The notes beneath the pieces were generated by a model. It worked only from the letters and a program-made list of their open reading frames with translations. It was not told the origin of the DNA and ran no database searches. This document shows positions 1,010 through 64,000 of a stretch of DNA of 64,000 nt, piece by piece; the first letter of the stretch is position 1, and every line of letters begins with the position of its first letter. The DNA lies in the NCBI GenBank assembly GCA_951802425.1, contig OX637804.1, forward strand, positions 2,418,001-2,482,000. Direction: 5' to 3'. Both the position numbers and the translations under genes were made by a program. This DNA is from Clavaria fumosa. Lineage: Eukaryota; Basidiomycota; Agaricomycetes; Agaricales; Clavariaceae.

Positions 1010-1613
1010 TCCCACAGGCAAGGAGTGAAGGAAGCAGCCTCCCCACCTAAGTCCCCCCCCTGTACTAGTATCATGTCAATGCCATCATCTGATTCCTGTC
1101 CCGAACTGCTTCTAAGGACAGTAAAGATAGTGGGCCAGCAAGAAATGGCCCAACTCAAATTCAAAGTTCGAATCTCCCCTCCTGCCTTCCCGAGTAGAGC
1201 TGTGCTCGGAAAAGTGTTGATCAATAGTGGCAGCACTACCTCGGTCATGGACCACAATTTCGCCAAGCAGAACTGGTTCCCTATGGAATGACTCCCATCC
1301 CTGATGATCATGAGAAATGTGGACGGTACACTGAACTCGCGAGGACCCATCACGCACCTCACCAAGGTCATGATTGAGTTTGGTCTCAGTCACTGCAAGG
1401 TTATCGAGTGCTACTTAGGCGATTACCCCGACTTCAACCTTGTGCTAGGCGATGACTGGCTCCAGAAGCACAACCCTGTTATCAACTGGCGAGCCCGCTC
1501 CCTTGAGTTCCAGCACTGCCATGGCCTCCCTTGTAGTGCTGCAGTCCGTGTCATCGCTAATGACTCCCCTGACTGGCCGACCCTCTTCCTGCGAGTTTTT
1601 GGAGAAGAGTTCT
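1010..1613 (+). pseudogene. gypsy element Y: retropepsin and start of RT, cut by E copy 1
   Basis: Two overlapping frames give a Ty3/gypsy aspartic protease. The active-site region reads LINSGSTTSVMD instead of the usual L-[IV]-D-[ST]-G-[AS], so the catalytic Asp is Asn. The conserved VLGDDWLQKHNPVINW segment follows. A frameshift near 1291-1304 separates the two halves. The reading frame runs through DWPTLFLRVFGEEF and stops being Y at 1613, where E begins with TGTCATGG. The same frame resumes at 62774 (see the finding on exchanged target duplications). Confidence 0.85.
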
Positions 1614-1868
1614 TGTCATGGGAAGAATGACGAAGTCGATTATGTAAAACAAGGCAAACAACGACAAAGGCAATACGATTAGGACAACTGCGATACTAGA
1701 AGCAAGAACACCAGAGTACCAATGGCAATCAAGAGTGAGGAGATGCTCCTTGCTGTTGATGGCCATTGGGGATTGGTTTATGGAATCGAAGCACCTAAGT
1801 AATACAAGAACCAATCTGGAACCAGAAACTATGTATTACGTCAAACGGAATCTTCGACGTTTGGGCCA

Positions 1869-2808
1869 CTAGACCCAGAGTTTATCCTCATCCACTGACC
1901 GAGAAGGAGACTCCCCAACCTGGACATACTCGCCCTTGACGTCTGGCAAAGCCACTGTAGCCATTGCAGGGGCTGACAGAGGAGACAACGGCGGAGGGGT
2001 AGAGTTCCACCCTGAGTAAGAGGTGGGGGAGGCCCAGCGAGTAGGGGGAATGGAGTCCCATTCTGCAAGAAAGGAATCAGTAAAGTGAATGAGAAATGGA
2101 AGAAAAGACGATACTATAGGGGTCCTTGAGTAGGTCACAGATAAGGTTGCCCAGGCGGACGACTCGAGGGCATCCCGACGCAAAATGGCCAGGATGGCCG
2201 CAAGCATAGCATCGTCGGGCAATGGTAAGAATGAGGATGTCATCGGCTCCCCTCTGAATCGCCCAATGGAAGGCCACACAAGAGAGTATGAGGGGGGCAA
2301 CTTGTTGGAAGACATGAGAGGCAGGGAGGAAGTTGAGTTTGTGGGGTCCCCAGCACATAGCAGAGATGAGGGGGGAGAAGCGGTACAAACCCTCCTTATA
2401 TACCATGAAGAATGGATAAGAGCCAGGAGATAAGCGAGGCGGTGGGAAGGAACCATCACACAGGAACACATGACGGATGAAGGAGCATGTGGAGATAAGC
2501 TGCGCCATGTGGTGGACTGCAGAGCAGCACATGGGCCGATAAGCGAAAGGTGATGATGTCCAAGATAAAGGGCAACGGAAGAGCATGGGAACCGCATCAA
2601 AGAGCAGTATCAGGCAGCTGCGGACTGTGCGAGCCTGCAGAATATGGCGAGAGGCAGCTGCGGACTGAGCAGGCCTGCGGAGGGATACACTGCAGCAGAT
2701 GGATAGCATCCTTGGGCTGTGGATGATGGGCTGCGCCGCAGGAACCCGCAGCACCCCTGAGGTATATAAGGGGTGCAGTGACATGGGAAATCCCTTAGTG
2801 TTGTTCAC
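1869..2808 (-). pseudogene. antisense Gag fragment inside E copy 1
   Basis: The minus strand encodes a second Gag zinc knuckle (CYACGHPGHFASGC) near 2170-2215 followed by LICDLLKDP, close to the arrangement in Y. A different minus frame continues to 1869 and ends DEDKLWV, like the tail of Y Gag. The two frames overlap, so a frameshift separates them. This looks like a piece of a Y-related gag captured in antisense inside the long LTR. The same fragment is present in E copy 2 at 61354-62273. No function for E can be read from it. Confidence 0.6.
2763..2770 (+). promoter_or_regulatory. TATA box of E copy 1
   Basis: TATATAAG lies about 130 bp upstream of the first ATG of the sense ORF and is conserved in copy 2 at 62228-62235. 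In an LTR this would mark the U3 promoter on the plus strand, which fits the TG...CA orientation. A 20-bp stretch just upstream, present here, is missing in copy 2. Confidence 0.6.
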
Positions 2809-2900
2809 TTGTCCCTATCACCTTATCATACTTTGGTGAAATCACACTGGCTTTCCCTACTGCTGACGAGAGATACCCTATCTCCTCCTGGCCCCAAGTA

Positions 2901-3308
2901 GTGACAATGCCAACCTCCGGATGGATCTACCCAATGCTGAGTCAGCGACGAGCCCAGATCACACGACTCACACATCATCTGACTGAGTTCAATCATTCCA
3001 TTTGTGTCGATATCCTTGGACATGATCACCCGGACTGCCAAACACTCGAACATGCACTTGCTCGCAGAGTAGCCAATCTCAGACAGCGAGTCATTGAAGC
3101 CAATGACTCTGAGTACAGAGCCAGAGCCACCCTACTTCGCTCTTTCCTAGGCCCCAGAAGACCCAGTGACAGAGTGATATCCCAATTCGATCCAATCAAC
3201 CAGACAGCCTTTGACCCTCTCATTCTGGCACTCAGGACTAACATAGTCCCGGTACCCAATCACCTCATGGAAAGCACCTCTGAGCCTTTGGCCCTGCTTC
3301 CCGTAACA
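2901..3308 (+). CDS. sense ORF inside E, unrecognised protein
   Basis: This frame begins MTMPTSG and is open to the right end of E (and into the flank here). The protein is charged and contains a helical-looking stretch rich in Arg and Leu (ANLRQRVIEANDSEYRARAT). Copy 2 keeps the frame open over the whole stretch with only scattered substitutions, several of them conservative. I do not recognise the family. The position downstream of the TATA box suggests the start of a Gag-like protein encoded within the long LTR. It may also be chance coding. Confidence 0.35.
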
Positions 3309-4458
3309 GTAGCCAAATCCTCTGCAAACACTATAACATCATCGACATAGGCACGGACATGCCCTCCTGCAATCTCTTCCCTCAACACATGGTTCATGAA
3401 GTGCTGGAAGGTCGCGGGTGCATTCTGCAGCCCAAACCACATAACTGCTGGTTTGAAGAGTCCACAAGGCATTAGGAAAGCACAGCAGTGCTGATGTTCT
3501 GGCCAGACCTGCATCAATGGGAAACCTCCCTTCACATCAATCTTGGAATAGATGGTTGCCCCATTTAACACATCCATGGTGTCTCAGATGAGGGGGAGGG
3601 GGTACTTGTCTTTGATTAGATGCGAGTTCAGCCTAGAATAGTCAATAATTGGCTGCAGCTTGTCCTTCTCATGTTTGAAGAAGAAGGGGCTTGCATATGG
3701 GGACTTTGAAGGTCAGATTCGTCCAGAGGCCAGCTGCTCATCCACCCAGCAATTCATCTCCACCATCTCTTCTCGCATTAGAGAGTATAGCTTAGAGGAG
3801 AGGTGTCCAGGGTCTGTTTTAAACTCGATTTTAATATCAAAGTCTGGGTGGGAGCAGGGAAGCTCATCCCACTTTGCTTCACTAAAAACCAAAGGGTAGT
3901 GGCTGGGCCAATCAGGGGTAGGGCCAGAGTTGGGAAAACAAGTGTCCAGAATACTTGCAGATGCGAGGGTACTCATCTTCAGGGATGCAGTGGCTTGCAG
4001 GGATGGGGAACACTGTGGGGGGCAGTGGGTAAGGCTTAGCTCTGCCTTCTGCCAGTCGATATCCGGGTTATGCTGCTTGAGCCAGTCATGCCCAAGGATG
4101 ACCTTGTGGGACTGGGACTTTCCCAGCAGAAAGTGGACCTGCTCTTGGTGGTCACCAACCCTCACCAGCAACTCTATCCCATACTGGACCTTTCCAACTC
4201 TGTTCTGTGTCCCATCCACATTATACATGGTAATCAGGTTCAGCAGGGGAGATGGCTCCAGTCCCACTCCTTTTGCCCACTCCATGTCCATGAAGCAGTT
4301 GGTGCACCCTGAGTCAACAAGGGCCTTCATCATGGCCAACTTGCCAGTGCTGAGAGCCTCCAAGTGCACCTGGATGGCTAGCTCTCATGGCACATGTTTC
4401 CCCACTTCTGGCCACACCATGGTTAGGCACTCTGCCGGTCTCACTTCCTCCTTCACCT
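3309..4458 (-). pseudogene. gypsy element X: protease and N-terminal half of RT
   Basis: Read on the minus strand, the protease active site is intact (ALVDSGCTNCFMD) and is followed by ILGHDWLKQHNPDIDW. The RT thumb-side start (PLVFSEAKWDELP) and later YSKIDVKGGF, GLQNAPATFQHFMN and the catalytic YVDDVIVF box follow. Stops and a frameshift interrupt it between about 3577 and 3713. The frame reaches AEDLA at 3309-3313 and is cut there by the right end of E copy 1. The continuation of the same RT lies at 61098 downward. An in-frame TGA lies just upstream of the protease. Confidence 0.85.
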
Positions 4459-4525
4459 CAGCTCCAATTTGGGTATGTCTCCACTGCAAGATAGTATATT
4501 GGGGTATACTTGCAGTGGGCACAGG

Positions 4526-5772
4526 TGTCACGTCCGTGCCATTCCCTCCGGACCTGGACTGGGAATATTAACTCCGGTCCCCAGTCTCCCCTCTCCGACC
4601 CCCGACTCCCGAACTCCGGACCCGTATCTCCGAACCTCCATCCCTGGTGCCTCAGCATCAGAGGGTACCCGCCCCAGTGGTGGTCCCAACCCCAATCCCG
4701 ATCCCGACTCCCGATCTCCGACCCCCCGACCCTGACTCCCCGACTCCTGACTCCCCAACTCCTGACTCCTGGTCCCAACCCCGATCCCGATCCCGACTCC
4801 CGATCTCCGACCCCCCAACCCTGACTCCCGATCTCCGACTCCCCGACTCCTGACTCCTGATCCCGATCCTGACTTCCTGACAGTCGCAAACCGACTTCCG
4901 TGGTTACCTTACCAGCAACGAACTCCGAGCGTGGAAACACTGCAACCCGCGCAGTTGCGTGGTAGCGAAGCTACCAACTTGATGGTAGTAGCATCCGACC
5001 TCCGGATCAGGGCACTTATCTCCGTTGCCGCCCCGTTGTCCCATCGCAATCCCTGCAACGCATCTCTGGGACATCTTCTGTAGCTACCGTCAGTTCTGCG
5101 GGTTGCTGGAAACGCCCCGGACTTGTAGTATATATACTTACCTACTTCGTAGAGTATTTCTGCAGTCCGGATACCTCCCTCGTACACCCTCACACCCCTC
5201 CCGTATACCCCTGAACTCCCGTACTTCCGTCCCTCCGTCCTTCCGCACCCCCGTACCCGTAATCCCGTCCGACCCCTCGTTTCCTGTTCCTCTGCCTCTT
5301 TCCGCATTCCCGTCCTCTCTGCCCAATACCCTGTAATCCGTACAATATCTAATCCGACCCTTGTCCTCCGTCTACTTCGCCAATTGTGCTAAGCCCCGAC
5401 CAACTCCCGTCCGACCCCCGGAACTCATCTCCGAACCCCGGAACTCCATTCTCCGACCCAACTCCTGTCCCTCCTAGTCATTCATTAACTCCGAACTCCG
5501 TCCAAACTCCATCTCCGCTCTCCCGTCTGTCCCTCGCCTCGAATATGGTGAAGTCCATACCGGACATCCCACCCGAGCACCGGACCCGAAACCCCGAACC
5601 CCGTACCTCCGAAATATGGGACACCCAGGACTCAGTAAGGGCGTTGTTTCAATATGTTCACCAAAGTCCCACCCGAACCCCGAAGTCCACTCCCAGACAT
5701 TCCGGACATCCCGGACCCGAACTCCGAACTCTGACCGGACTTCACCCCGACCCTCCGAGCATGCACATAACA
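4526..5772. mobile_element. solo LTR inside element X, 1247 bp
   Basis: Termini are TGTCACGTCCG and ATGCACATAACA, flanked on both sides by the 5-bp duplication ACAGG (4521-4525 and 5773-5777). Removing it rejoins X on the minus strand. No internal coding region survives, so it is a solo LTR. Much of it is made of short C-rich repeats built on CTCCGA and CCCGA words (about 4560-4870 and 5160-5750), which creates long open frames on both strands that I take as spurious. It begins and ends like the minus-strand reading of the solo LTR at 51944-52792 (TGTCACG...TAACA). Confidence 0.88.
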
Positions 5773-5777
5773 ACAGG

Positions 5778-6290
5778 GACGGAAAGGGTCTAGTCCAAGG
5801 AGGGCCTTCCTCCTGATGGATCATTCGTATGCTGTCCAAAAATGCGCCAGTGTGTCTTCTCTGAATACATGAGCCTTGCTTCAGCTTGGGCAAGGGTAAG
5901 GGCTGCCTAGGTCCAAAGAGGTAGGCAGTGGGAGAGGTTGTTACTTGTCAACAATGCTCAAACTGACTCCAGCATATTTGAGGGAGCTTGGTGGTGCTCG
6001 GCTGAATGGGAGCAGAAGGATAATGTGATAAGAAGTAATAGGGAATACTGGTAGTCAGTATCGTTACTTATATACTACGAGGGTGTGAGTCATAGGGAGA
6101 GGGCAGTGCAACATGAGTCATACATGAGGAGGCAATGTGGCATGAGTCATAGGTCTGAACATGAGGCTGTGACATGAGGGAAGGGACACAATGTGTGTAG
6201 TGTGATAGAGAGAAATGGGGGTGTGCATGGTGGAAGGGGGAGGTGGTGGAGCATGTGAAGGATAGGGGGGAGTCACATGGTAAAACTCTT
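5778..6290 (-). mobile_element. gypsy element X: 5' part, probable gag remnant and LTR promoter
   Basis: This stretch continues X beyond the inserted solo LTR. A short minus-strand frame to about 5893 may be Gag. On the minus strand a TATATAAG box sits near 6068-6078, in a region rich in GTGAGTCAT/CATGAGTCA repeats that resembles the promoter region at 19960-20300. I read it as the LTR of X with unresolved ends. Confidence 0.4.
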
Positions 6291-6605
6291 ACAACTATCG
6301 AGCATCAAAGCAGAGTACATTGTGGTGGCTCATGCAGTGAAAGAGGCCTGCTGGTTCTGAGCTTTCCTAGATGAGATCAGAAGGGACCTGCACACACTGA
6401 TCCCTTTCAGATGCAACAATCAATCCACAATTGTGCTATGCTGGGACAATAAATTTCATGCATGAAGCAGTCAAAAACAAGAAAATCAAAGTGTCCTGCA
6501 TACCTACAGACAAAAACCTCACTGACATCTTCACCAAACCCCTCATCATGATGCAGTACAAGTTCAAATACTTCTGCAAACTTCCTGGACTTGAGCATGT
6601 TTGAG
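6290..6605 (+). pseudogene. Ty1/copia RNase H tail, decayed
   Basis: Translation gives KAEYIVVAHAVKEACWF, then FLDEI, NNQSTIVLC and DNKFHA, and in a shifted frame PTDKNLTDIFTKPL. These are the ordered landmarks of the copia RNase H C-terminus. Stops and at least one frameshift break it. It directly precedes a purine run and a TGTTGCAT terminus that fit the 3' LTR. Confidence 0.8.
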
Positions 6606-6611
6606 GGTGAG

Positions 6612-6883
6612 TGTTGCATATTTGTTATAAGGTTGAGTTGGAGCCTCAATTTTATGTTTTTACTGTAGTGCATCAGACCACTGCACTTCTCAGTGTTGAA
6701 TAATACTGAGTTGTGAGTGTCAAACCTCTTTCATATTTTTCCATGTCACTCATTTACATATGGTTACTAGACACTTTATCTTTTTAGGTATCTAGGCTGT
6801 CTAATCACTCAGTATTGAATAATACTGAGTTATGCTTTATCTTTTTAGTCTCTTAGCCAATCTGTTCAAGCAAATTCTCTACA
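6612..6883 (+). mobile_element. copia 3' LTR
   Basis: The LTR starts TGTTGCATA right after the purine-rich GAGGGTGAG. The right end is placed at TCTCTACA and is uncertain. Inside are two hairpins of similar sequence: CTCAGTGTT/AATACTGAG (6689-6697 with 6702-6710) and ACTCAGTATT/AATACTGAGT (6807-6816 with 6821-6830). Confidence 0.55.
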
Positions 6884-7390
6884 CCAGGTTCTTGGGGTGT
6901 ACATACCAGTCCACACCTCTCTATACTGACAAGTTAGCCAAGCTGTTTTGCTGATGTGACCCATGATGGGAAGTACTATGACAAACTTTGTGCTGGGCCT
7001 GCAGCCCTGGTTCCCCAAGAGCAGACCAACCAAATCAACGGAGCCCCAGGTGAGACAAATTGCTCGAAAAAACCCACACCTTTCCCAGACCTCCTCGTCG
7101 CTACCTGAAGCAAAGCAAATAATTTGAATGCGAGGGTTTCTTATGTGTTTGAATGTGTACAAAAAAGTTGTTTGAATTGAAAGAAATGAACTCAGTCCTA
7201 CTGCAAAGCCAGCCAGGGCCTCTGACAACGCCGCTTATTCATTGAAGGCGATCCAGCGCGGGTGAAGTGTTATCTACACGCGTGCACACTCCCTCCGCCT
7301 CGTGGCCTTCCTCCCGCTCCCACCAGCTTCAGATTCTCCCCGCTCCCCTCCCCTTTTTCACGACTCCCGTCCCTCTCCCACCGTCCTGCT
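6884..7390. other. intergenic, upstream of CHS7
   Basis: No gene is visible. The last 130 bp before the CHS7 ATG are pyrimidine-rich (CCCTCC and TCTCCC runs), as is usual for basidiomycete promoters. Any remaining copia flank sequence is not recognisable. Confidence 0.5.
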
Positions 7391-8764
7391 ATGACCACGT
7401 TCGGCGATTTCTCCGTTCTATGTAGAAATGTCCCTTCCTATCCGTGGTGTAATCTGTTCTATCGTCAGGCAAGTCTCGCGCTTTAAACCCCCCGCACTCA
7501 GCTGCTGCATCTCAGAGGTCCTTTCCACCCAGCTCTTGAATTTACCTACTACCCTCAAGGGCCTTTCTGCTAACCGAGCGAGTGCTCCGGTCGGCATCAA
7601 CCCGGTTTGTGGTATACCCAGGGTCGGTTTCAATGGTTCATTTGCCAACATCGCCAACATCGTTGTGTCTGGCGTGAGCGCGGTCGTCGTCTTCTTCGTA
7701 ATATTACGCACGCATAGGAGAAAAGCCGCTGTCGGTATGTCACCAACGAGCACACACCACTCCTCTGTTCACTTCTCTCACTCCCCTCCCCCAAAAACAA
7801 TCAACCGAATATTTTTTTCTGCCTTATCACCCGGCCTCCGTCCCATTTGTATCACTGATCTCTTCCCTCGCAGGGCGCTGGGAAATAATAATCTTCCTAT
7901 CCCTTTACATCGTCACTCTCATCCTGCAACTCATCACTTTGGGGTCCTTCATCGAACAAGGCTCAACCGTGCTCGTCGTTTTCACCGCCCTTCACGCCGG
8001 CACGGTCGCCGCCCTCTTTGGGGCATTGCTGGTCAATGGCATCGTCGCGATGCAGAAATACGATGATGGAACGCCTGCGTCGCTCATCGTACGTTGTTCG
8101 TCCGATATCCCCTCGCGGGTCTTTTGACGGGTTTGGATCCGACAGTTACTTGCTGTTGTGTCGTTTGTTTTCTTCGTCCCCACCACGTACATATCCCTCG
8201 ACACTGCTCTCTCTATATCACGGGCATTTACGCTGTCTACACCACCGGAGGCCTTACACAATATCCCTCTGTTTGTATTGACCAGCATATGGCCTGGCGT
8301 GTAAGCACCCTTTCGGTTCGAATAGCTCAACGCATGCTTGTTGACAGACCAACACCACAAACTCATATCTTAGCGCCGCTCTGTTGTACTTTCTCACCAT
8401 GTTCTACATCGTCGCATTCAGCCTCGACGAAGTTCGATCATTCCTGTGGTTTCTCATGCCAGCCACATCCTTTATTCTCTCACAGCTGGCGTACTTTTTG
8501 TTGGGCAAGGTCATCTGCAAGGCGCGTTGCCAATGCCATTTGCCCTCCCCCAGCGTAGAATTGATCTGGCGGTCTATGCAGGGCACGCAATCGAAAGTAG
8601 ACGGATCTTTCGTGGCTACTCTGCTGGAGACCATCTCAGTGGTCTCGCTCTGGGCAGCTTGGACGCGCATCACAGAAGGTGCGTGGTCGTCCCCACCTGA
8701 TCACATTCGCGTCACAGGCCAACTCTCACGCCTAGGGGAGTTCAATTGGAATTCGTCACACTAA
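7391..8764 (+). CDS. CHS7: Chs7-type chitin synthase export chaperone
   Basis: The product belongs to the Chs7/chitin synthase III family, multi-pass ER membrane proteins needed for ER export of class III/IV chitin synthase. The first exon (7391-7468) gives MTTFGDFSVLCRNVPSYPWC. Later exons give NIANIVVSGVSAVVVFFVIL, a membrane segment, then HRRKAAVG, and LLVNGIVAMQKYDDGTPASL, the family signature (NGxxxxQxYxDGTP). Further membrane segments follow in TTYISLDTALSIS and FLTMFYIVAFSLDEVRSF, and the end (KVDGSFVATLLETISV...ITEG) is also typical. Introns are 7469-7517, 7735-7873, 8089-8145 and 8299-8347; frames agree at every join. Intron 1 appears to use a GC donor. The last exon may contain a further in-frame 39-bp intron near 8680-8718. 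Confidence 0.88.
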
Positions 8765-8943
8765 CTTGCTCCTATGTACCTTTGCTAATTCTATTAAACT
8801 TGAGGTAACATATAAACTGTGCGGGCTACACCACTATCGAAGGGGATGGGCTTTCTTTTCTTTCTTTTCTCCACAACTGCGAAGGTATTCTTTTCTCTTC
8901 TCAGAAGAGCTGACGGGAGAACGGGTATCTCATCCACAACACT
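8765..8943. other. short convergent intergenic region
   Basis: CHS7 (+) and the next gene (-) converge here. The stretch contains TTTCTTTTCTTTCTTTTCT runs and no recognisable gene. Confidence 0.5.
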
Positions 8944-10852
8944 CTATGACAACGAAGGCATCTCTCGGCGTCGCGATTGACAACCCGGAGTCCAAGCAAA
9001 ACATTTCCTCAGAAAAGACGCGGTGACAGCCGTGAGAATCGAAGGTTCTGTACAACGGACAAGAAAAACAACAACGCGTCCTTCAGAACGACCGGTCGCT
9101 GAGAAAAAAGGATGCTCAACTAGTCGTTTGGATATTCTGCGCTTGACATCGACATAAACCCATCTGCGGTCGAGAGCACTGGGTCTGAACCTATCTAGAC
9201 AGACCGCGATCCGTCGCAGCCCGCCTCGTCCGCCCGACGCCGGCGCTGATGCTGGGCGCTTAGGCTTGGGCTCAGGCTCGGGGACAACGTGGGTCTCCCG
9301 CTCCTGGCTCTCCCGAGTGAGTATCGTCGCCACCGGGTTGGTGGCAGCATCAATGTCAGAATGCGGCTGCTGTTGGACAGCGGGGCGGCGCTTGCGCAGA
9401 CGACGTCGGAGCGGCGCGGTGGCCGGAAGGAATGAGCCGGCCTCGTCCGGATACGCTTCAATGAAGTTGGAGGTCGAGCTAGTGGAGATGGAAAATGCAG
9501 AGCTCTGCTCGGACCAATGAGATTCGAGCGGCGAATGCCGGGTTGAGGCGGGAGGTGGTGTTATCCGCCCAAGGATTATAACAAAAGGTTTAGAAGAGCA
9601 AAGGAGGCTGCGTATAAGCGGTCCACTCACAATGTTGAGCTCTACCCATACTGCACTGTTATCGGTCGTGTACGACCTAGGACGTTGCCTTCCTCCATAG
9701 AACGCGCGATCCATCGTAGATGCTTCCATTCCTATGCCGACGTCTTCCAGTTGTCCCATGGTAACGCCGTCGAGCACCGCACGAGGATCGAAGGCAAAAG
9801 ACCGGTTGAGCCGGCTGAACATGGACCAATGTCGGCTTGGCTTGGACGAGAACGTACGCTGAACGCTCCCGACCTCGCGGCTGCTCCCGCTGTCATTGCC
9901 AGCGTTGTCATGCGTGTGGTTGTAGGCGGCACGGTTGCATGCGTCAATACCTCCCGAAATAGATGACGCCCTCGTGACGGCTTGTCTGTATCGCTCGTGT
10001 ATGGGCGTCTTGGTCTCGAAGTTCTCTGTCAGGAATGTGAACATCGCGGTCGTGGTGGATCCAGGGCCGGGCGGGGTCATGCCAAATAACGGGTCGATGG
10101 TGAGTACCTGCGACGCGCCGTCGTCGGCCTCGTCCGACGGGAAGCTATGCAAGGGGGGCGAGGAAGGGGCGGAAGAGGAGGCTACGAGTTCAGCCACAGA
10201 GAAAGTCATCAAGCCTTCGTCCGGGTCGTACACGGCTACAAAACCCAGGGCAGCGTCCGGAGGGACCACCTCGGACCATCTCTTCTCGTCGCGGCCATGG
10301 CTAGCGCATAGCAGAGAGGCGCCCACGCAGTCGTCCGAGACACAGACAGCCTGGATGAACGGGACGCAGGTAAGAGGAAGAGGTAGCCATCGCTGAGGAA
10401 GGCCTCCGTACGTGCTCAACTGTTGCTTGCGCATCCGCATCGAGGAGTTCTTTCGAAACAAGCTCAACCATGTTGTCCAAAGCTGGGTTTCCAGGCCCGA
10501 GATTTTGGCGGAATAGAGTCTGCGGCTGACGCCATGCGTCGAAGAACTGCGTATGTATAAATTTAAGATACATACCTGGAAAGATCTGATTATCGTAGAC
10601 TGGGAAGGCCAGGTGAGCAGGACTACTCCACTCGCATGGAGGGAATGCGCGCCGTAAAGTGGGAGGTGCCAACTTGTGGAAGATATAGCCTATGAAACCC
10701 GTGCTAACCCCACCAAGTGCATGTGTGCTTGTCACACCCGGAAACGAGGAAGAGCATTGGAGGTCCGTACCCCTGACGGCAATCGTTGGAGTCACTCGAG
10801 TCCAGCAAATTAAATTCCAGACAGCGAGATAGGCACCTCGACCCGAGCTCAT
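8944..10852 (-). CDS. uncharacterised multi-exon host protein
   Basis: I do not recognise the family. A frame from 10852 (or from the internal ATG at 10471, MVELVSKELLDADAQATVEH) is followed by a probable intron (donor GTACGG, acceptor CATCCAG) into AVCVSDDCVGASLLC, then GFVAVYDPDEGLMTF, IDPLFGMTPPGPGS and a long Ser/Thr-rich part. After NSAVWVELNI a GTGAGT donor marks another intron, so the 507-residue open frame partly reads through intron sequence. The 3' part is rich in Arg and Pro (PLRRRLRKRRPAV). There is no signal peptide or clear membrane segment. High GC and codon pattern match the neighbouring host genes rather than the transposons. Exon borders and the true start are uncertain. Confidence 0.5.
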
Positions 10853-16087: not shown

Positions 16088-16147
16088 AAGGGCATCCTGG
16101 CGAAGATGTGAGTGAATTGCCAGGATGAAATTTCGCGGCACGTGAAC

Positions 16148-19915: not shown

Positions 19916-19959
19916 CCAGATGACTTCAATGCTTCATGGTATTGGACAAGAACTTGACA

Positions 19960-45117: not shown

Positions 45118-45120
45118 TGT

Positions 45121-51530: not shown

Positions 51531-51541
51531 GTCATGGCATC

Positions 51542-51785: not shown

Positions 51786-51792
51786 CTCCCCC

Positions 51793-54400: not shown

Positions 54401-54433
<33 letters not shown>
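54401..54433 (-). other. LINE poly(A) tail
   Basis: Uninterrupted T run on the plus strand, directly followed on the left by copia coding sequence (CCTAATCCCC on the minus strand). Confidence 0.9.
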
Positions 54434-54731
54434 CCATTAGACTCCTGTTGGGGCTTTACCCTATGTCGGAGTATGCTACCATATTGTACATTCGTGTGAT
54501 ACTCTAGTTTGTGTCGTTTGCAAGGGCTTTGGGTCGCTTAGCGATCGCCATCGCGCGAATGCGCTTGAAATTACTTATAACGGGGTCAGAGCCGGGTGCG
54601 TTAAAAACCCCCAGTGGGGGAAAAGCTACCGGTTGCCGAGCGAAAATACATTAAACTTATCAACACCTTCGGGCTTGAGCGGTCATCTTGTTTGGTGGAG
54701 CTTTGGATGACCTGGCTAGCGAGAGCCGGGG

Positions 54732-57110
54732 TCAGGCGTGGTTATTGCCCGCCTGCGCATCGTTGTCGTTGTTGTTGGGGGCCGGTCGATGCGTTCGGTT
54801 GAAGCGTTTCATGGCCATCGCGAACTTGATGACCTTTTTTATTGCTGTCGGGTCTGTGAGTAGGTACCTGAGACTGCGGGCGCCTCTGCCTAGGCTGCCC
54901 AGTATCGCGTTCCTTCGGGTGGTCGTGCTTGTGCACGTGAGGAGAAAGTGTTGGACGGACTCCTCCTCCTGGCCGCAGTGTGGGCACTGGGGGTCCGTGG
55001 AGGCGCCTATTCTGAACAGATGTCGTCGTAGTGGGGCATGTCCAGTCCGTAGCTGTAAGAGGATAGATGAGTGTGGCTTCGGTAGCTCTTCAACTAACCG
55101 CAGGAAGTGTTTTGAAGGTAGAGAGTCATCTATGTTCTTCATGTGATTATACCTTGGCGATCCCCTCCACCATCGTCTCGCCCTTTCCTGTATGGTTTTT
55201 CTGAGTGTCAGTGATAGGGCAGCTTTGCTGCCTGCGATCCTCCGCCTGAGGAGTCTCGGGAGGTCCTCCTCGGGGCTGGTGAGGCCTCGCGCCGCCTCCT
55301 TGGCAGCCTTGTCGGCTAATTCGTTCCCTGCTACTCCGTGGTGGCCGGGGACCCATATTGCCTTGCATTTCACTTCGTTTCCTCTGCGTTGTAGGCGGCT
55401 GATTGTCGATTCGAAGGCCTTGAGGATGTCATGAGAGGGTGCCGGCCGGGAGAGCTGGGTGGCATGGAGGGCTGCCTGGTTATCAACGACAAAGGCGACC
55501 GTTCTGAACCTTCCTTTCTCTTTCTGTAGTAGGTGTGCTCCTAGCAGTAGTGCTGCTGTCTCCGCTGCATAGACCGTGTGTCGCGTCTGCTTCCCCAGGT
55601 GGAGCTGGATCGTCTTGGGTGGTCGGTTCCCTCGAGTTAGTACGGCTGCCGCGCCAATTCCCCCTTCGTATCCTGACCCGTCGGTGAAGACGTAGATATC
55701 CGCCTCTTCCTCCTGTAGGCTTTGGATTGCTGCTTCGTTGTTTTCCTTGATTTCTATTCGTACTGGCGGGGTGGATTTCAGGTGACGCCCCACCACGGGT
55801 GTTTTCTCTACAGTGTCTGGGTTGATTTTCCTGAAGTCCGCGGTGAGCTGGTGTAGCGGGGACAGGTGGGCTCTGGGGGTGTGCTTGTGGGCGCGGGATA
55901 GGTGTTTGTTGATCGGGTGGGATCCCGGGAGTGTCGCCATGCGAAGTAGCGCTGCCAGGCGGAGTTTATCAACTAGTAGGTGAAAGGGTAGGAGGTTCGC
56001 GTGCGCTTCGATCGTGTCCGTGGCCGTGGTCTTCATTGGGCCTAGTGTCAAGAGGGCCTGTCGCTGTATCCTAGTTAGCTTTCCTCCCGCTGTAGTTCTC
56101 CTTCCACGCCTCGCCGTGTGTCCCCTCTGCGGGTTTCCCCATATATCGACTGCATATAGCATTCTGGGGACGCATACCGCCAGGTAGAGTCGTCTCGCCA
56201 GGTGTAGAGGGATGCCGCTGTGTGTCTTGGAAATTCTTCTCGCTTGCGACGCCCAGTACGTACCTTTGGCCATTGCGTTCGCGACCTGCTCCGTCCATGA
56301 GAGGCTTTGGTTGAGTATTACACCGAGAAACTTCGTGCTTTGGGACGGTCGTATTGTGTGATCTCCTATCGTGATTGCTTTCCTAGGCTCTGGTTGTCGT
56401 TTGTTCGGTTGTAGCGGTCTTGGTACTTGTCTGCGAGAGAACCCGATCAGTGCGCATTTTGGGATCTCAACCTCGCAGTTGTGTGTCCTGGCCCATTCCA
56501 GGAAGCCGCCCGGTTTCTCCATCGTCTCCTTGAGCGTCTGGTTGGCTTCTTCGAAGGTCTGGCCTCTCGCCAGGAAGACTTGATCGTCAATGAAACCGCT
56601 GACAGTCTGCGTGTTGGCCCTGTCAGTGGTGACCGCTTCGAGGGCTGGGGAGTTGTAGACAATGTAACAGATCGGCGACAGGGGGCATCCCTGATCTAGA
56701 CCTGCCGTTATGTCGAGGGGGTCAGATTGGAAATCGTCGAAGACGATGTTGGTGGATCGGCCGCGTAGTTTTTCTCCTAGCCAGTCTGTGTATTCCTTCG
56801 GTATTCCTCTCATTCGCATTCCGTGCCGCAGCATCCGAACGTCGACGCTAGGAAAGGCCCCCTTGATGTCTAGAAATAGTCCCGCAACTACTTTTTGTCG
56901 TCGCCATGCGTCATTTATGTATTTCACGACTAGGTGCAGCGCGTCGGTAGCTGTTCTGCCAGGTCTCCCGCCGAAGTGTTTGTCAGGTAGGAGCTGGAAC
57001 TTCTCCAGGATATAGGTCAGATCTTCGGCTACCGCCATAGACAGAGGTTTTGCGAGGGTCTTAAGTAGGACAATCGGCCTGTAGGCTTTCGGTACGGTGT
57101 AATTGGGAGA
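54732..57110 (-). CDS. LINE ORF2: reverse transcriptase and RNase H, N-terminus deleted
   Basis: The frame can be read from about 57110 (YRPIVLLKTLAKPLS; first ATG 57038). RT landmarks are HFGGRPGRTATDALH, GLFLDIKGAFPSV, GLDQGCPLSPI and the polymerase box FIDDQVFLA. The RNase H domain has VFTDGSGYEGGIG, YAAETAALLLG, VVDNQAAL and VPGHHGVAGNELADK. The C-terminal zinc motif CPHCGQEEESVQHFLLTC is present. The order RT, RNase H, CCHC is that of Tad/I-type LINEs. The apurinic endonuclease domain that should precede RT is absent. All visible catalytic residues are kept, and the frame is open for 768 codons. Confidence 0.9.
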   Translation of the reverse strand, partial: SPNYTVPKAYRPIVLLKTLAKPLSMAVAEDLTYILEKFQLLPDKHFGGRPGRTATDALHLVVKYINDAWRRQKVVAGLFLDIKGAFPSVDVRMLRHGMRMRGIPKEYTDWLGEKLRGRSTNIVFDDFQSDPLDITAGLDQGCPLSPICYIVYNSPALEAVTTDRANTQTVSGFIDDQVFLARGQTFEEANQTLKETMEKPGGFLEWARTHNCEVEIPKCALIGFSRRQVPRPLQPNKRQPEPRKAITIGDHTIRPSQSTKFLGVILNQSLSWTEQVANAMAKGTYWASQARRISKTHSGIPLHLARRLYLAVCVPRMLYAVDIWGNPQRGHTARRGRRTTAGGKLTRIQRQALLTLGPMKTTATDTIEAHANLLPFHLLVDKLRLAALLRMATLPGSHPINKHLSRAHKHTPRAHLSPLHQLTADFRKINPDTVEKTPVVGRHLKSTPPVRIEIKENNEAAIQSLQEEEADIYVFTDGSGYEGGIGAAAVLTRGNRPPKTIQLHLGKQTRHTVYAAETAALLLGAHLLQKEKGRFRTVAFVVDNQAALHATQLSRPAPSHDILKAFESTISRLQRRGNEVKCKAIWVPGHHGVAGNELADKAAKEAARGLTSPEEDLPRLLRRRIAGSKAALSLTLRKTIQERARRWWRGSPRYNHMKNIDDSLPSKHFLRLVEELPKPHSSILLQLRTGHAPLRRHLFRIGASTDPQCPHCGQEEESVQHFLLTCTSTTTRRNAILGSLGRGARSLRYLLTDPTAIKKVIKFAMAMKRFNRTHRPAPNNNDNDAQAGNNHA

Positions 57111-58899
57111 TACGTGGGTCGAGGGGTTGGGTCGTTCCTTCCCATGGGGGGATTGCCATCCGTGGTAGTTGGGTTTGGGCTAGGGTTTGGTTTCCGGGTC
57201 TGCGTTGTGTGCGAGGGGGGGACCGGTGTTCTGTCGGGGCTTGGGGGGGTGTTGGTGTCGGCGTTCTCATGCCATCCTTGGGCTGGGCTAGTTCCCAGGT
57301 GGTCGTGTCGTCAATAATGGGAAAATATCTGTACTTATTCTCTGGGAAGTGCTGGTTGATTTTGTCGCACTCCGCTTTGAAGATCGGGCAGTTCCTGTCG
57401 CTGGCGGTGTGCCCATCTTTTCTACAGTTTGCACAGAATCTCTTGCCGTCTTCCATCGGGCAGTCCGCAGATCTGTGCATTCGTCCACAGATGGCGCATG
57501 TGTCGTGGATTTGCGGACAGTTCGCTGCCATATGTCGGTGGGCGTAGCCTTGGCATTTCAGGCATCGTCTTGCCTCCTGTATGTCTTTGCGTCCAAAAAC
57601 CTTCTTGCCCTCGATGATGAGGCCTTCCCGGAGGGCTTTGTTGGCTTGACGTGCTGTCCTGAAGGTGAGCAGGACGAAGGCTGTTCGTTGGTTCGGGCTT
57701 CGTTTCTTGGGGTCTTTGAGGTATCTGGCCTCCGATATGGCGCCCGCAGGGAGGTCGTTGACGACTTCGATGGTTGCGCTGCCGGAGTTAGGGTCAAAGG
57801 AGATAGGCACGTACTCACATATCACGCCGTATCCCTGCCCTCGTACTCTGACTGGTGACCCGTAGTGGTCAGTGAAAGCTTTCCTGACGTTCTCCCGTCG
57901 TAGCCAGTTCGCCGCCTCCTCGTTGGCCATTAGGTAGAGGATTCGCCCTCGTGCCAGTTTCTGTGCCCCCATGAAGAGTTTGTTGAGGTGAGGTCGGCCC
58001 GGGACTTCGTCGCCCATGAGGTCGATCGCGGCATTGGCTTTCTCCACCAGAACTTTCTCTGTTAGCGCCTCATCGAGTTGAGCCGTGGCGTCGTCCACAA
58101 CCGATGTCCTTTCAATTATGACCTGTCGTAGTCGTCCCTGTGACCGTGCTAGGACTTCCTCGTGTCCGGGGGTGAGGGCAGCGCGGACTGCGGCAGCGTA
58201 GGAGGCCGGGGAGGGGGTCGGTGTTTGAGTCCGTTCATGGTTGGGTGGAATGTTGTTGCTCGAATCCGGGTTCGAGGGGGTGTGTGTATCTGCTTCGTCC
58301 TGCAGGCGTCGTGCTGTAGTTTGAGGTTGGGATAGGAGCTCTAGGATGTCCCTCTGGGCTTGGGACGCGTCGCGGGTGGCCGTATCGGTTTTCTGGGTGA
58401 GCTCGTCGACTGTGGTGTTCAGGTGTTCTCGCAGACTTTGCAGGGCTTGCGTTTCTTTCCTAATCTCGTTCAACACGTCGGTGTTGGTCTGCGCTTCAGC
58501 GAGGATCTGTGAGGTGGCTCGTTTGACGTCGTCGGCAATTTCGTTCAGCATCTCGATCGCAGGGGCGATCATCGCGTTGGGATCACCGGTCTGAGGTAGG
58601 GGTTCCTGAGCGTTGAGGAGCGTGGCCATGGCGTTGATGATGTCGAGCGCCGGTTTGGGGATGCGGGCCACGTTGTGGGCGAGTCTCGTGAGAGCTGTCG
58701 CCAAAGATCGTGGTGTGATGGTGCCATTCGGTGGGATCAGGCCTTCCCTTTCCAGCACGGCCCTGGCTCGGGTGGTGTCGTCATTGGTGATACTCGTCTG
58801 GCGGGGTGTGGCCTGGTGATCAGTATGGGGGGGACGGGTTCGTGGTGTCCTGCTTCCCCCTGCGCCTTCGGTCTGGTGACCGCCGGCATTGGTTGACAT
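57061..58899 (-). CDS. LINE ORF1: gag-like nucleic-acid-binding protein
   Basis: 612 codons. A helical region (TNTDVLNEIRKETQALQSLR) around residues 135-200 suggests a coiled coil. Three CCHC knuckles follow in the last third: CLKCQGYAHRHMAANC, CAICGRMHRSADC and CANCRKDGHTASDRNC, as in ORF1 of Tad-type LINEs. The C-terminus (PPWEGTTQPLDPRISQ) runs straight into the RT codons in another frame, so the stop at 57061 is set by the deletion junction. Confidence 0.85.
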   Translation of the reverse strand: MSTNAGGHQTEGAGGSRTPRTRPPHTDHQATPRQTSITNDDTTRARAVLEREGLIPPNGTITPRSLATALTRLAHNVARIPKPALDIINAMATLLNAQEPLPQTGDPNAMIAPAIEMLNEIADDVKRATSQILAEAQTNTDVLNEIRKETQALQSLREHLNTTVDELTQKTDTATRDASQAQRDILELLSQPQTTARRLQDEADTHTPSNPDSSNNIPPNHERTQTPTPSPASYAAAVRAALTPGHEEVLARSQGRLRQVIIERTSVVDDATAQLDEALTEKVLVEKANAAIDLMGDEVPGRPHLNKLFMGAQKLARGRILYLMANEEAANWLRRENVRKAFTDHYGSPVRVRGQGYGVICEYVPISFDPNSGSATIEVVNDLPAGAISEARYLKDPKKRSPNQRTAFVLLTFRTARQANKALREGLIIEGKKVFGRKDIQEARRCLKCQGYAHRHMAANCPQIHDTCAICGRMHRSADCPMEDGKRFCANCRKDGHTASDRNCPIFKAECDKINQHFPENKYRYFPIIDDTTTWELAQPKDGMRTPTPTPPQAPTEHRSPPRTQRRPGNQTLAQTQLPRMAIPPWEGTTQPLDPRISQLHRTESLQADCPT

Positions 58900-59114
58900 T
58901 CGGTTTTGGTTCAGGTTTTGGTTTTACTTGCTTCTCTCTGCTCTGCTCAAGTACAGGTAGGTGGTTCGGAAGAGTAGTTATAGTAGCTAGGAGGTTCTTG
59001 TAAGGGCTATAGTACTAGGCAACTGGGCGTTCTTGATTTTGTAGTTGGGCTTGTACGGTGTTGTCGTGGTCGCCTCGGGGGTCAATCTTAATCCCCTTAA
59101 TCTCAGCTATTGCC

Positions 59115-60184
59115 TCAGGCAATAGCGAGGTTTTGTCTCATATCATCACGAGGTAGCGATGTAATACATCGCTCTGGTAGTTCGTGGAACTTGGGGATAC
59201 CTCCCGAGTAATCTCCCGCTCCTTCTGGGGCGGTTCCATCCATCCGAACAGGCCCATCCAGCCCATTGGCTCTCGCTGACCCAGCTGTGGGTAGCGCGAC
59301 ATAAGCCATGGCTCCAGCCCCACTGTTTCTCGAGGGCCTCCGCCCTCCATTTCCGGTTCACCCGGGGTTTGAGAACCGTCCACACGGTTCTCCCTTCGCC
59401 ACCCTTCCTCGTGGTCGGCTGGCGCCAACCATCTGGCCTCCGGGGCTACCCCTAAGAGCGCCTGCCTCGGCGGGGCAAGCCCCCCTTCAGGTTCCAAGGA
59501 TTCACGGCATTCCTGCTGTCAGGGAGCTGCTAGCGCAGTTCCCTGCTCGTCTAGCGAGTCCAACACCCGCCTAACGTGGGTAGCCTCCTCACTTAGCCGT
59601 TGCCGAATAGTGGCCTGGCGATTTTTCATCGCCTTCACAAGAGCCTCAAACTCTTCGTCCTGGCGGGAAAGTTCCGCCTGGATATCCGAGAGCCTTTCGG
59701 CTACAGCATTAGCTCATGCTATCGCTGTGGGGTCATCTCCACTATTGGAGGGAGCCCACGAGCTTGACCGCTCTCGCGGCCACCTCTCGCAGGTTTCTAA
59801 GGGCTCTCTGCCCTTTCCTTTTGAAGGCCTGGCCTTCTCGAACGATGGCGCCTTGCCAGTGACTTGGCGCGTTGTGGCGCCCTCCTTGTAGCGATTGCCA
59901 TGTGTCGACAGTGTTTCGGACCTAACACCATCATCAGGGGCCAGTGACACCACGTCAGCCCTTAGTGGGGGTTCACTGCTGGGCTCAACAGAGGGTCCTA
60001 TTCCCTCTGGCTGCGTGATGCCTGTGTCGCGCAGAGGTCCTACCAAGGGAGGAGTTTCTCCTCCCTTCTTGTTGTGCTTTTTCTGTGCGGCTATATGGGT
60101 GTAACCCATTTCTAACCACACTTGTTGTGTTGAAGGTTCAAAAAAGTTGTAACACTTTCTATCCCTCAAAAGAACCAGACTCAA
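59115..60184 (-). pseudogene. gypsy element W: gag remnant
   Basis: Minus frame from 60184: MSLVLLRDRKCYNFFEPSTQ, GETPPLVGPLRDTGITQPEG, ATTRQVTGKAPSFEKARPSK, then an in-frame TGA (59715 region) and a helical stretch AERLSDIQAELSRQDEEFEA with ATIRQRLSEEATHVRRVLDS. Further frames (PEGGLAPPRQALLGVAPEAR) follow with frameshifts. I read it as the N-terminal part of a gypsy Gag, from its position after an LTR; sequence motifs alone do not prove it. It ends where the LINE begins. Confidence 0.45.
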
Positions 60185-60196
60185 CGGTATATTGCG

Positions 60197-60372
60197 TGTA
60201 GTAGTTCTATATAGAGGGATCTACCCTCTCTGTACAGTCGTGACACTATATATATAGGCGAGTGGCCCTCTAGGGGCCGCTGATGTAAGCATAGCCTAAG
60301 CGGCTATGCTAATAGACTATTATGGTATGTAGATTATATAATAAAAGAATAGAAAAGGCCTATAGCCTTACA
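60197..60372 (-). repeat. probable 5' LTR of W
   Basis: On the minus strand it starts TGTAAGGCTATAGG and carries CTATATATATAG (about 60246-60257), a promoter-like TATA. A symmetric GGCCCCTAGAGGGCC word and TAGCCGCTTAGGCTA inverted repeat lie inside. The end at CTACTACA is tentative. Confidence 0.5.
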
Positions 60373-60480
60373 CCTTGGCTCAGTGTCGACCAGTCCTTAG
60401 GAGCGAGCTCCTTCAGGACTCTGAGTTCATTGGTGGTTGGGTTGTGAGACCCCACAGGCCTTGCTGCGTCGGTGGCCACA
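60373..60480 (-). repeat. scrap of a Z-like gypsy element
   Basis: The reverse complement (GGCCACCGACGCAGCAAGGC through GGACTGGTCGACACTGAG) matches Z at about 24797-24896, the linker between protease and RT, with a few substitutions. It is fused to the RNase H of X at 60480/60481. Confidence 0.85.
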
Positions 60481-61098
60481 GTGGATCTCAATCGTCTCAT
60501 CCACTCCAGTGAGGTATGCCTGCCACTCATGAAGTGCCCAAATCACAGCCAAGAACTCCTTGTCATACATGTCATAGTTCTTCTCAGCTGCAGTGAGGGC
60601 CTTGGAGATATAGTCAACAACTCTCCAGGTTCCATGCATCTGCTGCTGCAAGAGCACTCCACCAGTTGCCAGGTTACTCACATCCGTCTCTACCTTCCAT
60701 CTCCCTTTGTCCTGAGGCAGAGCCAAGACTGGGGCTGATACTAGTGCCAGGCAAAGATCTTGGAAGGCTGCTTCCTCCTCCTCCTCCTCCTCCCATCTCC
60801 ATGGAACCTTCCCTGTCAACTGGAAGAGTGGCTTTGCCCAGGCAGAAAGATTCAGGATGTGCTGACAGAGGTAGTTTAGCATCCCATTAAACCTCTGGAC
60901 CTCCTTCACATTTCTCGGTCATGGCCAGTTATGGATTGCTGTGCCTTTAGCTGGGTCATGCTCCAGACAGTTGTGGGAGATCTTCATCTCCAGGAAGAAG
61001 ATCTCACTCTTCTCAAACTTGCACTTGCTGAGTCTGAGACACAGCCCCTTCTCCCCAAACTTCCTCAAGACCCGATCCATCCAATACCGGTGTGTAGC
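60481..61098 (-). pseudogene. gypsy element X: C-terminal half of RT and RNase H
   Basis: From 61098 downward the minus strand reads ATHRYWMDRVLRKFGEKGLC, LRLSKCKFEKSEIFFL, a frameshift/stop near 60910, then EVQRFNGMLNYLCQHI, LAKPLFQL-like NLSAWAKPLFQLTGKVPW, KVETDVSNLATGGVLLQQQ and YDMYDKEFLAVIWALHEWQA to ETIEIH. It is the exact continuation of the RT that breaks off at 3313 with AEDLA, sharing the 5 bases GCTAC (minus strand). An acidic run EEEEEEE (near 60780) is a short GAG expansion. Confidence 0.88.
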
Positions 61099-62773
61099 TG
61101 TCATGGGAAGAATGACGAAGTCAATTATGTAAAACAAAGCAAACAATGACAAAGGCAATACGATTAGGAAAATTGCGATACTAGAAGCAAGAAAACCAGA
61201 GTACCAATGGCAATCAAGAGCGAGGAGATGCTCCTCACTGTTGATGGCCATTGGGGATTGGTTTATGGAATCGAAGCACCTAAGTAATACAAGAACCAAT
61301 CCGGAACCAGAAACTATGTATTACATCAAACGGAATCTTCAATGTTTGGGCCACTAGACCCAGAGTTTATCCTCATCCACCAACCGAGAAGGAGACTCCC
61401 CAACCTGGACATACTTGCCCTCGACGTCTGGCAAAGCCACTGTAGCCATTGCAGGGGCTGACAGAGGAGATGACGGCAGAGGGGTAGAGTTCCACCCTGA
61501 GTAAGAGGTGGGGGAGGCCCAGCGAGTAGGGGGAACGGAGTCCCATTCTGCAAGAAAGGAATCAGTAAAGCGAACAAGAAATGGAAGAAAAGACGATACT
61601 ATGGGGGTCCTCGAGTAGGTCACAGATAAGGTTGCCCAGGCGGATGACTCGAGGGCATCCCAACGCAAAATGGCCAGGATGGCCACAAGCGTAGCATCGT
61701 CGGGCAATGGTAAGAATGAGGAGGTTGTCGGCTCCCCTCTGAATCGCCCAATGGAAGGCCACGCAAGAGAGTATGAGGGGGGCAACTTGTTGGAAGACAT
61801 GAGAGGCAGGGAGGAAGTTGAGTTTGTGGGGTCCCCAGCACATAGCAGAGATGAGGGGGGAGAAGCGGTACAAACCCTCCTTATATACCACGAAGGACGG
61901 ATAAGAGCTGGGAGATAAGCGAGGCAGTGGGAAGGAACTGTCACACAGGAACACATGATGGATGAAGGAGCATGTGGAGATAAGCTGCGCCATGTGGTGG
62001 ACTGTGGAGCAGTACATGGGCCGATAAGCGAAAGGTGATGACGTCCAAGATAAAGGGCAATGGAAGAGCATGGGAACCGCATCGAAGAGCAGTATCAGGC
62101 AGCTGCGGACTGTGCGAGCCTGCGGAATACGGCGAGAGGCAGCTGCGGACTGAGCAGGCCTGCGGAGGGATACACCGCAGCAGATGGATAGCATCCTTGG
62201 GCTGTGGACGATGGGCTGCGCCTGAGGTATATAAGGGGTGCAGTGACATGGGAAATCCCTTAGCGTTGTTCACTTGTCCCTATCACCTTATCGTACTTTG
62301 GTGAAATCACACTGGCTTTCCCTACTGGTGACGAGAGATACCCTATCTCCTCCTGGCCCCAAGTAGTGACAATGCCAACCTCCGGACGGATCTACCCGAC
62401 ACTGAGTCAGCGACGAGCCCAGATCACACGACTCACACATCATCTGACTGAGTTCAATCATTCCATTTGTGTTGATATCCTTGGACACGATCACCCGGAC
62501 CGCCAAACACTCGAACATGCACTTGCTCGTGGAGTAGCCAATCTCAGACAGCGAGTCATCAAAGCCAACGACTCTGAGTACAGAGCCAGAGCCACCCTAC
62601 TTCGCTCTTTCCTAGGCCCCAGAAGACCCAGCAACAGAGTGATATCCCAATTCGATCCAATTGACCAGACAGCCTTCGACCCTCTCATTCCGGCACTTGG
62701 GACTAACATAGTCCCGGCACCTGATCACCTCACGGAAAGCACCTCCGAGCCTTCAGCCCCACTTCCCGTAACA
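61099..62773 (+). mobile_element. E copy 2: long LTR-like element, 1675 bp
   Basis: Same orientation, same termini (TGTCATGGGAAG...CCCGTAACA) and nearly the same sequence as copy 1, lacking 20 bp upstream of the TATA box (62228-62235). Left flank GTAGC (61094-61098), right flank GTTCT (62774-62778). The antisense Gag fragment (zinc knuckle CYACGHPGHFALGC) and the sense ORF from 62366 are both conserved. Confidence 0.85.
62366..62773 (+). CDS. sense ORF inside E copy 2, unrecognised protein
   Basis: Same frame as in copy 1 (MTMPTSGRIYPTLSQRRAQI), open through the right end of E into Y. See the copy 1 entry; function unknown. Confidence 0.35.
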
Positions 62774-64000
62774 GTTCTACAATGTTCTACCCCCATACCG
62801 CCCTGGAGTCAACATCGACATCCAGCTAGAGGATGGTGCCCACCCATACCAGTCCCAAATCTACCCAACTCCCAAGGCCTACTGTGCAGAGCTTCGGAAG
62901 TGGCTAGACAAGAACCTTGTGACCAGACGAATTTACCCAGGACAGTCACCATGGGCAAGCCCCCTCTTCTTCAAGAACGAAGGAGACAGGCTCCGGCCTG
63001 TGGTCGACTACAAGTGGTTGAACGAAGTCATGGTCAAGAATGCCTACCCCCTCCCTCTCATCTGGAACATCTATGACTGCCTACAGAAGTTCCAGTATTA
63101 CTCAAAGATCAACATCTGGATCGGGTTCAATAATATCCAGGCATCGAAGGAGAGCAAGAAATTGCTGGCGTTTATATGCAAATATGGACAATTCCTGTGT
63201 TGGGTCATGCCTTTTGGAGTCACTAACGCCCCCGCGATCTTCCAGGCTTTTATGGATGACGTCCTGAAGGACCTGGTAGCCACCAGTCAAGTTTTCGTGT
63301 ATATCGATGACATTCTTATTTGCTCCAATACTCACGAAGAGCTCCGCCACCTTACCGCACATGCTTTCCAGGCTCTCCAAGAGAATCACCTGACCATCAA
63401 ACCCACGAAGTGCGAATTCGAGCGGACCGAGGTGACTTTCCTTGGAAACAAGATTCGGCAAGGGACTATCGAGAAGAGCGAGAAAAGATGCTTGGCTATT
63501 GACAACTGGCCAGTTCTGAAGTCAGCCAAGGATGCACGCAGGTACATGGCCCTTGGAAGCTACTACCGACAGTATATCCCGAATTATGCCAAGATTGCTG
63601 CCCCTCTCCATGCCTGCACTGGTAAAGGTGAATTTAACTTAACAGACGCTGCACTAAAGTCATTCTATGACATCCAGGATGCAATTCCCCAGGATGGAAT
63701 GCCCTGGAAAATCGAGACAGATGCCAGCAAAGTCGTGACCTCGGCTATCCTGTACCAACAACAGGATGGAGTGTGGAGAATGGTGGACTGCCTATCGACA
63801 AAACTCTGGGACGCCCAGCTGAATTACAATGTCTATGACCTGGAACTCCTCACAGTGGTACGTGCACTCGAGGAGTGGCAACACTACCTCCTAGGCCAGG
63901 ACTTCGAGGTCCACACGGACCACAAGAACCTTTCATATTTTCAGAAACTGAACCTGCTTAATGGATGCCAAAACTGGTGGAGACAGTTCCTATCCCTCTT
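62774..64000 (+). pseudogene. gypsy element Y: RT and RNase H, runs off the window
   Basis: Starting at the GTTCT duplication the frame gives YNVLPPYRPGVNIDIQLEDG, KNLVTRRIYPGQSPWASPLF, LRPVVDYKWLNEVMVKNAYP, YSKINIWIGFNNIQ (catalytic Asp of SKxDLRxG is Asn), FGVTNAPAIFQAFMDDV and YIDDILICS. RNase H follows with IETDASKVVTSAILYQQQ, YNVYDLELLTVVRALEEW and HTDHKNLSYFQK. The frame is open to the window end. The upstream part of the same polyprotein is at 1010-1613. Confidence 0.88.

Follow-up and report, generated by a model that had tools for sequence, protein, structure and literature searches.

How did a block of almost 58 kb with host genes come to lie inside a retrotransposon of the fungus Clavaria fumosa, between two copies of one repeat whose target duplications have changed places? 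We analyzed a 64,000-nucleotide stretch of assembly GCA_951802425.1 (contig OX637804.1, positions 2,418,001 to 2,482,000), called the window; other contigs are named C1, C2 and so on, the window's own is C11, and plain coordinates are positions in the window. The repeat, E, is present as two solo long terminal repeats (LTRs), E1 and E2. Each interrupts a retrotransposon, X or Y, and the sides of the two interrupted elements are interchanged. This arrangement very likely arose when an E copy in X crossed over with one in Y. A preliminary description, made from the letters of the window alone, had gone further and read it as the footprint of an integrated circle, a route that we favor tentatively.

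Exchanged target duplications

E1 (1614-3308, 1695 bp) and E2 (61099-62773, 1675 bp) both lie on the plus strand, are 93.8% identical and have TG...CA ends, as determined by end reading and alignment. They enclose a segment of 57,790 bp (3309-61098). Neither copy has a matching 4-5 bp duplication of its own; instead, the flanks of each match those of the other crosswise. GTTCT stands left of E1 (1609-1613) and right of E2 (62774-62778), and GTAGC stands right of E1 (3309-3313) and left of E2 (61094-61098), all on the plus strand. We assign GTTCT to the insertion site in Y and GTAGC to the site in X. If base frequencies are equal, the probability of finding two exact 5-bp cross-matches by chance is about 4^-10 (about 1e-6), a figure that leaves the continuity of the host elements uncounted. 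The letters and coordinates given for these flanks in the preliminary description agree with ours to the base, and the in-frame protein joins that it quoted, of Y across GTTCT and of X across GTAGC, are consistent with the open reading frames (ORFs) and the sequence.

Copies of X and Y elsewhere in the genome provide an independent view of the two sites. In X copies without E at the site, the stretch that ends at 61098 in the window directly adjoins the stretch that starts at 3309, with an exact 5-bp overlap, in all eight copies examined (L036-L039, L044-L047). In Y copies without E, the stretch ending at 1613 adjoins the one starting at 62774, again with a 5-bp overlap, in five of five (L038, L040-L043). 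Each site is therefore a single insertion point whose two sides have been exchanged.

The interrupted elements

The two halves of X are on the minus strand and stand in outer-inner order. Comparison with X copies identifies Xn (3309-4525) as the N-terminal side, from protease to reverse transcriptase (RT), and Xc (60484-61098) as the C-terminal side, from RT to RNase H. X had seemed to be truncated at 4525, a reading that we rejected: a solo LTR, F (4526-5772), begins there and is flanked by equal duplications ACAGG (4521-4525 and 5773-5777). Beyond F, sequence comparison finds the last 16 bases of X on this side (5773-5788, minus strand), five of which belong to the F duplication, before X breaks off. 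Among four X copies covering both halves, L046 is nearest to both, at 3.8% and 3.9% outside CpG; the next copies differ by 5.3% (Xc) and 8.3% (Xn). An older X relative within the segment (20196-33220, in the pieces 20196-22060 and 32402-33220) is 76% identical to X copies, lacks about 2.95 kb including the RT region and has another retrotransposon, G, inserted. It is unlikely to be the missing rest of X, given its 76% identity, whereas X itself reaches 88-92% with the complete copies along the whole of the shared stretch.

Y is on the plus strand. Its protease side, Y5' (983-1613), ends in the five bases GTTCT of the target duplication, and its RT side, Y3' (62774-64000), runs on past the window to the end of the 3' LTR at C11:2484124; both were identified by comparison with Y copies. 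A 37-bp head of the Y LTR is found at C11:2402553, preceded by ATCAT, and ATCAT also follows the end of the 3' LTR. These equal outer duplications indicate that Y is one element and that the 59-kb insert lies within a single Y. Between them, Y contains W in its 5' LTR, then Z, then the block made up of E1, the segment and E2. Z is an LTR-type insertion, recognized by multi-copy matches, whose right part occupies 1-982 (plus strand) and which starts left of the window at C11:2417189, with GGTGC on both sides by eye. W (C11:2402590-2414701; L050, L048) has ends 97% identical to each other, and about 172 bp of the 5' LTR in which it sits are missing.

The E family and the kinship of E1 and E2

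E has at least 46 matches in the 48.76-Mb genome (the best 40 of 731 first-look candidates were scored). We read its ends at 33 places (L001-L033), two of which are the window copies, leaving aside L034, L035 and five further short matches. The other 31 places comprise 15 solo LTRs intact at both ends, six 5' LTRs, five 3' LTRs (one rearranged at its far end) and five copies with an end lost. All 15 intact solo copies have matching duplications, 11 of 5 bp found by script and four of 4 bp recognized by eye in the flanking letters, which makes matched flanks the norm in this LTR family. One common sequence follows E at the six 5' LTRs, another precedes it at the five 3' LTRs, and the pairs are about 6.5 kb apart on one strand. 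These positions identify E as the LTR of a family of retrotransposons that includes two-LTR elements.

Both outer flanks are readable in four two-LTR elements. They are equal over 5 bp in L007/L009 and L015/L014 and over 4 bp in L023/L019. The fourth (L022/L021, C4:3752997-3760000) has mismatched outer flanks, GAAAC and TCTAG, and is likely, from these flanks, a second product of ectopic LTR exchange. Seven matches of about 675 bp (e.g. C15:7088, C3:21561, C12:2607899 and C1:5171172) resemble the 5' part of E with 90-91% identity; several lie close to contig ends, and they are perhaps a portion of a subtelomeric repeat.

E1 and E2 differ by 85 substitutions and one 20-bp deletion. The differences affect 14 of 1399 columns outside CpG-type sites (1.0%) versus 71 of 276 CpG-type columns, and 76 of the 83 polarized substitutions are C>T or G>A. 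Such decay, almost solely C>T/G>A at CpG-type sites and seen in other E copies too, is what CpG methylation would be expected to cause. Outside CpG, each of 21 further copies of nearly full length that we aligned differs by at least 4.2% from E1 and by at least 4.4% from E2; judged from these distances, E1 and E2 are sister copies. Sister copies at separate places also occur elsewhere in the family (L016 with L021/L022, L014/L015 with L017, and L018 with L020; 0.4-0.6% non-CpG difference), so a single burst that made two independent insertions would be enough to explain E1 and E2.

A probable crossover between two E copies

The exchanged duplications, the continuity of X and Y across them, the single Y with equal outer duplications and the kinship of E1 and E2 together make it very likely that an E in X recombined with an E in Y; we give this exchange a probability of about 0.9. 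We infer both the crossover and its reciprocity. One E would have integrated in X and a near-identical E in Y, each making a 5-bp duplication, and both would since have become the solo LTRs now present. A homologous crossover between them would then join Y5' to Xn and Xc to Y3', and a further recombination at a closure junction, J, inside the segment would connect the two remote sides of the X locus, with the result that a 57.8-kb block with host genes would lie inside Y. That the E exchange was accompanied by a second joint, made by whatever route, we consider likely.

Among the routes to this second joint, we favor one in which J is made first: this would yield a circle (Xn...J...Xc-E) of about 59.5 kb, whose integration would then take a single crossover between E copies. 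We place this route slightly below an even chance. The preliminary description had proposed the same integration, and its account of one E insertion each in X and Y, an exchange between them and an X segment now inside Y holds, while the circle itself goes beyond what the window establishes. It had also called a circle the only single-step source; a circle must itself be made before its one-step integration, which brings the total to two recombination events. Excision with reinsertion, or two translocations, would take the same number of events and yield the same product, so the final sequence does not separate these routes from the circle.

Several observations weigh against this account. No closure junction J was found within the segment, and no donor scar or circle emerged either, although no search could be aimed at these two. 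Nor did a change-point test along E1 and E2 detect a significant switch in mutation load (permutation p 0.09), a test of low power. Among the matches listed, the best match differs between the halves of X, being C12:2047881 for Xn (93%) and C8:3310783 and C1:239801 for Xc (92%), and when CpG is defined differently, Xn lies at 6.8% from L046 and slightly closer to L036 (5.9%) and L045 (6.5%). With such unlike best matches, descent of Xn and Xc from one X copy is consistent with the data, not proven by them. The two parts of Y also diverge unevenly from other Y copies, by 13.6-14.6% for Y5' versus 10.5-11.0% for Y3'; between two other copies, these parts diverge about equally, by 5.8% and 6.1%.

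Search for a putative closure junction

Three insertions in the segment were considered as J and excluded by their equal duplications, which mark them as ordinary insertions: F, with ACAGG; G, the LTR retrotransposon in the older X relative (22061-32401, plus strand), with AGGGG as determined from its flanks and by comparison; and a DNA-transposon-like element at 47842-48666, with terminal inverted repeats and an equal 8-bp duplication, CGCTCCAT, read by eye. Close copies of the last are found on C3 and C2. Within G, long ORFs occur on both strands at 28582-29930, between the integrase and the 3' LTR, with no Pfam match for the one tested, and a tandem array of units of about 52 bp (30206-31086) interrupts the 3' LTR.

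The breakpoints that remain as candidates for J are near 5788, where X stops; at 54401, where a Copia piece meets the T-run of a long interspersed nuclear element (LINE); and at 60372-60484. Sequence comparison places the Copia piece, the LINE with its T-run (54402-54433) and the end of a multi-copy repeat at 60372 together in 52704-60372 (minus strand). Right of this repeat end and next to where X is broken, alignment finds a 102-bp piece (60378-60479, minus strand) that is 93% identical to the opposite strand of an interior part of G (24795-24896). We had considered the repeat end at 60372 as the 5' end of the LINE and gave this up on copy numbers: the repeat end is found in at least 39 further copies versus at least 11 of the LINE 3' end, the latter comprising, among the matches listed, three at 96-99% and eight at 79-87%.

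Contents and copy number of the segment

Three of ten ORFs tested in the segment have Pfam matches over the curated cut-off. They match a calcineurin-like phosphoesterase (PF00149; 12502-12972, minus strand, part of a host gene), ATG14/VPS38 (PF10186; 14823-15770, minus strand) and PROPPIN of the ATG18 type (38897-39535, plus strand, part of a host gene). For the ATG14/VPS38 family, the gene at 14841-15698 is the genome's one match above the cut-off; a weaker match, below it, lies on C3. The preliminary description had put five or more intact host genes in the segment, a count that stays putative given these three matches.

Genome searches with 4526-20180 and 33222-52600 returned repeats and partial copies and, among the matches listed, none in 10644-16147, 34282-40239, 43733-46089 or 48668-51935; the search for a second copy left out 20181-33221, 52601-53899 and 54801-60089. 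For these queries of 15.7 and 19.4 kb, unlike for shorter DNA queries, the window's own place is absent among the matches listed, which are therefore possibly incomplete. Independent support comes from the ATG14/VPS38-type gene and from both tested junctions, each found once: Xc-GTAGC-E and E-GTTCT-Y3' have one occurrence each genome-wide with up to three mismatches allowed, and no retained donor junction was found. The absence of a second copy of the segment is thus moderately supported.

Some parts of the segment have relatives elsewhere. Those of 7084-8829 occur at 11 places among the matches listed. Six are on C11, and four of these, all on the same strand, lie at 2.29-2.33 Mb, some 100 kb before the window starts. 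This clustering is a hint of local origin and is compatible with an intrachromosomal version of any route. The stretch 8934-10643 has partial copies of different parts, one of 8934-10065 at 96% (C8:251228) and one of 9237-10643 at 98% (C5:2706923), which look like a recent dispersal of pieces of local sequence. At 46090-47648, terminal inverted repeats surround trinucleotide-type repeat arrays, and one relative among the matches listed lies on C1 (86%).

Competing explanations

Both alternatives that share the crossover between E copies dispense with a circle carrying the whole X locus. In one, X and Y started out on the same chromosome in the order Y5'-E-Y3'-A-Xc-E-Xn-B; recombination between the E copies would excise a circle bearing Y3', A and Xc, leaving Y5'-E1-Xn-B, and the circle would re-enter downstream, in B. 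The number of events and the product equal those of the route that we favor, and the C11 clustering of relatives of 7084-8829 hints at the local origin that this order implies. It also predicts a second junction to the right of Y3', and the 16 kb right of the window contain no repeat of at least 60 bp shared with the window (E 1e-8). A Copia LTR at C11:2551344 was considered as the re-entry repeat and set aside, its left flank being CCCAT versus GATGC in the window, with no cross-match. Re-entry at a more distant place, or without homology, would be compatible with both of these results, and we regard excision and reinsertion as unlikely overall. Two successive translocations between the chromosomes of Y and X, or other two-step exchanges, with the first through E and the second elsewhere, would likewise produce the same sequence from two events without any circle. 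The mismatched C4 element suggests that ectopic LTR exchange is present in the E family. Two exchanges would nevertheless be needed between the same pair of chromosomes at nearby places, and no reciprocal product was found, the two junction searches being the sole means by which it was looked for. We rate this history as rather unlikely, below excision and reinsertion.

The remaining alternatives do without an E exchange in the genome. If the true molecules were Y5'-E-Y3' and Xc-E-Xn, an assembler might have misthreaded them through the E copies, as a repeat of 1.7 kb could allow. E1 and E2, however, differ at 105 alignment columns, including the 20-bp deletion, and so are not a collapsed repeat, and to carry a linear X locus into Y the assembler would have needed a cyclic path through its graph, which means one more false join; an assembly error is accordingly improbable. 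Least probable, and very much so, is that a linear molecule of E, segment and E was inserted into Y as a unit by a retrotransposon integrase, making the outer GTTCT duplication in a Y that never had an E of its own. GTTCT on both outer sides fits one such insertion of the whole unit as well, and the two E copies are sisters. Near-identity between E copies at different loci is seen in any case, in the three groups described above, and no route is known that would make such a molecule out of an X locus holding one E.

Comparison with known systems

Most scars of a large gene-bearing rearrangement are still legible at this locus, in the outer duplications of Y, in Z, F and G as ordinary insertions, and in the exchanged E pair. 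They suggest a screen for LTR copies whose own duplications disagree and match another copy crosswise; the continuity of the host elements that these copies interrupt would serve as a separate test. The results could indicate how frequently host-gene blocks are relocated by LTR remnants, and whether this usually proceeds through circles. If the circle route is correct here, and we put it at not quite one chance in two, a host-gene circle of about 59.5 kb that included the ATG14/VPS38-type gene would have re-entered a chromosome by one crossover between solo LTRs, with retrotransposon remnants serving as its docking sites.

Mismatched target duplications are the textbook mark of ectopic recombination between LTRs or solo LTRs. 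The window conforms to this in having LTR copies in direct orientation at two places, with exchanged flanks and homology over the whole LTR. It departs from the usual case in that 59 kb of one chromosome separate the exchanged junctions, and the block between them carries genes and sits within another retrotransposon. Ectopic LTR-LTR recombination is thus a known process with which the locus agrees, and its footprint here is unusually readable. A narrow literature search turned up nothing on reintegration of fungal extrachromosomal circular DNA at LTRs by homologous recombination, which does not imply that reports are absent.

Gene-bearing circles are familiar from other settings. Cattle colour-sidedness reportedly arose by serial translocation of a block through circular intermediates; there too a block would have been moved by a circle, in another host and with other sequences. 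In yeast, a circle carrying histone genes is said to form through retrotransposon copies. In that system the circle itself was studied, whereas here we have a possible integration footprint alone. A further fungal parallel is region B of wine yeasts, whose circularly permuted insertions are read as the trace of a circular molecule (Galeote, 2011; PMC3053389). Like the block in Y, region B is a large gene-bearing fungal block; its order implies a closed circle, as that of the block in Y may do. It differs in having several permuted insertions with little or no similarity at their breakpoints, whereas the window holds one insertion, framed by homologous LTRs.

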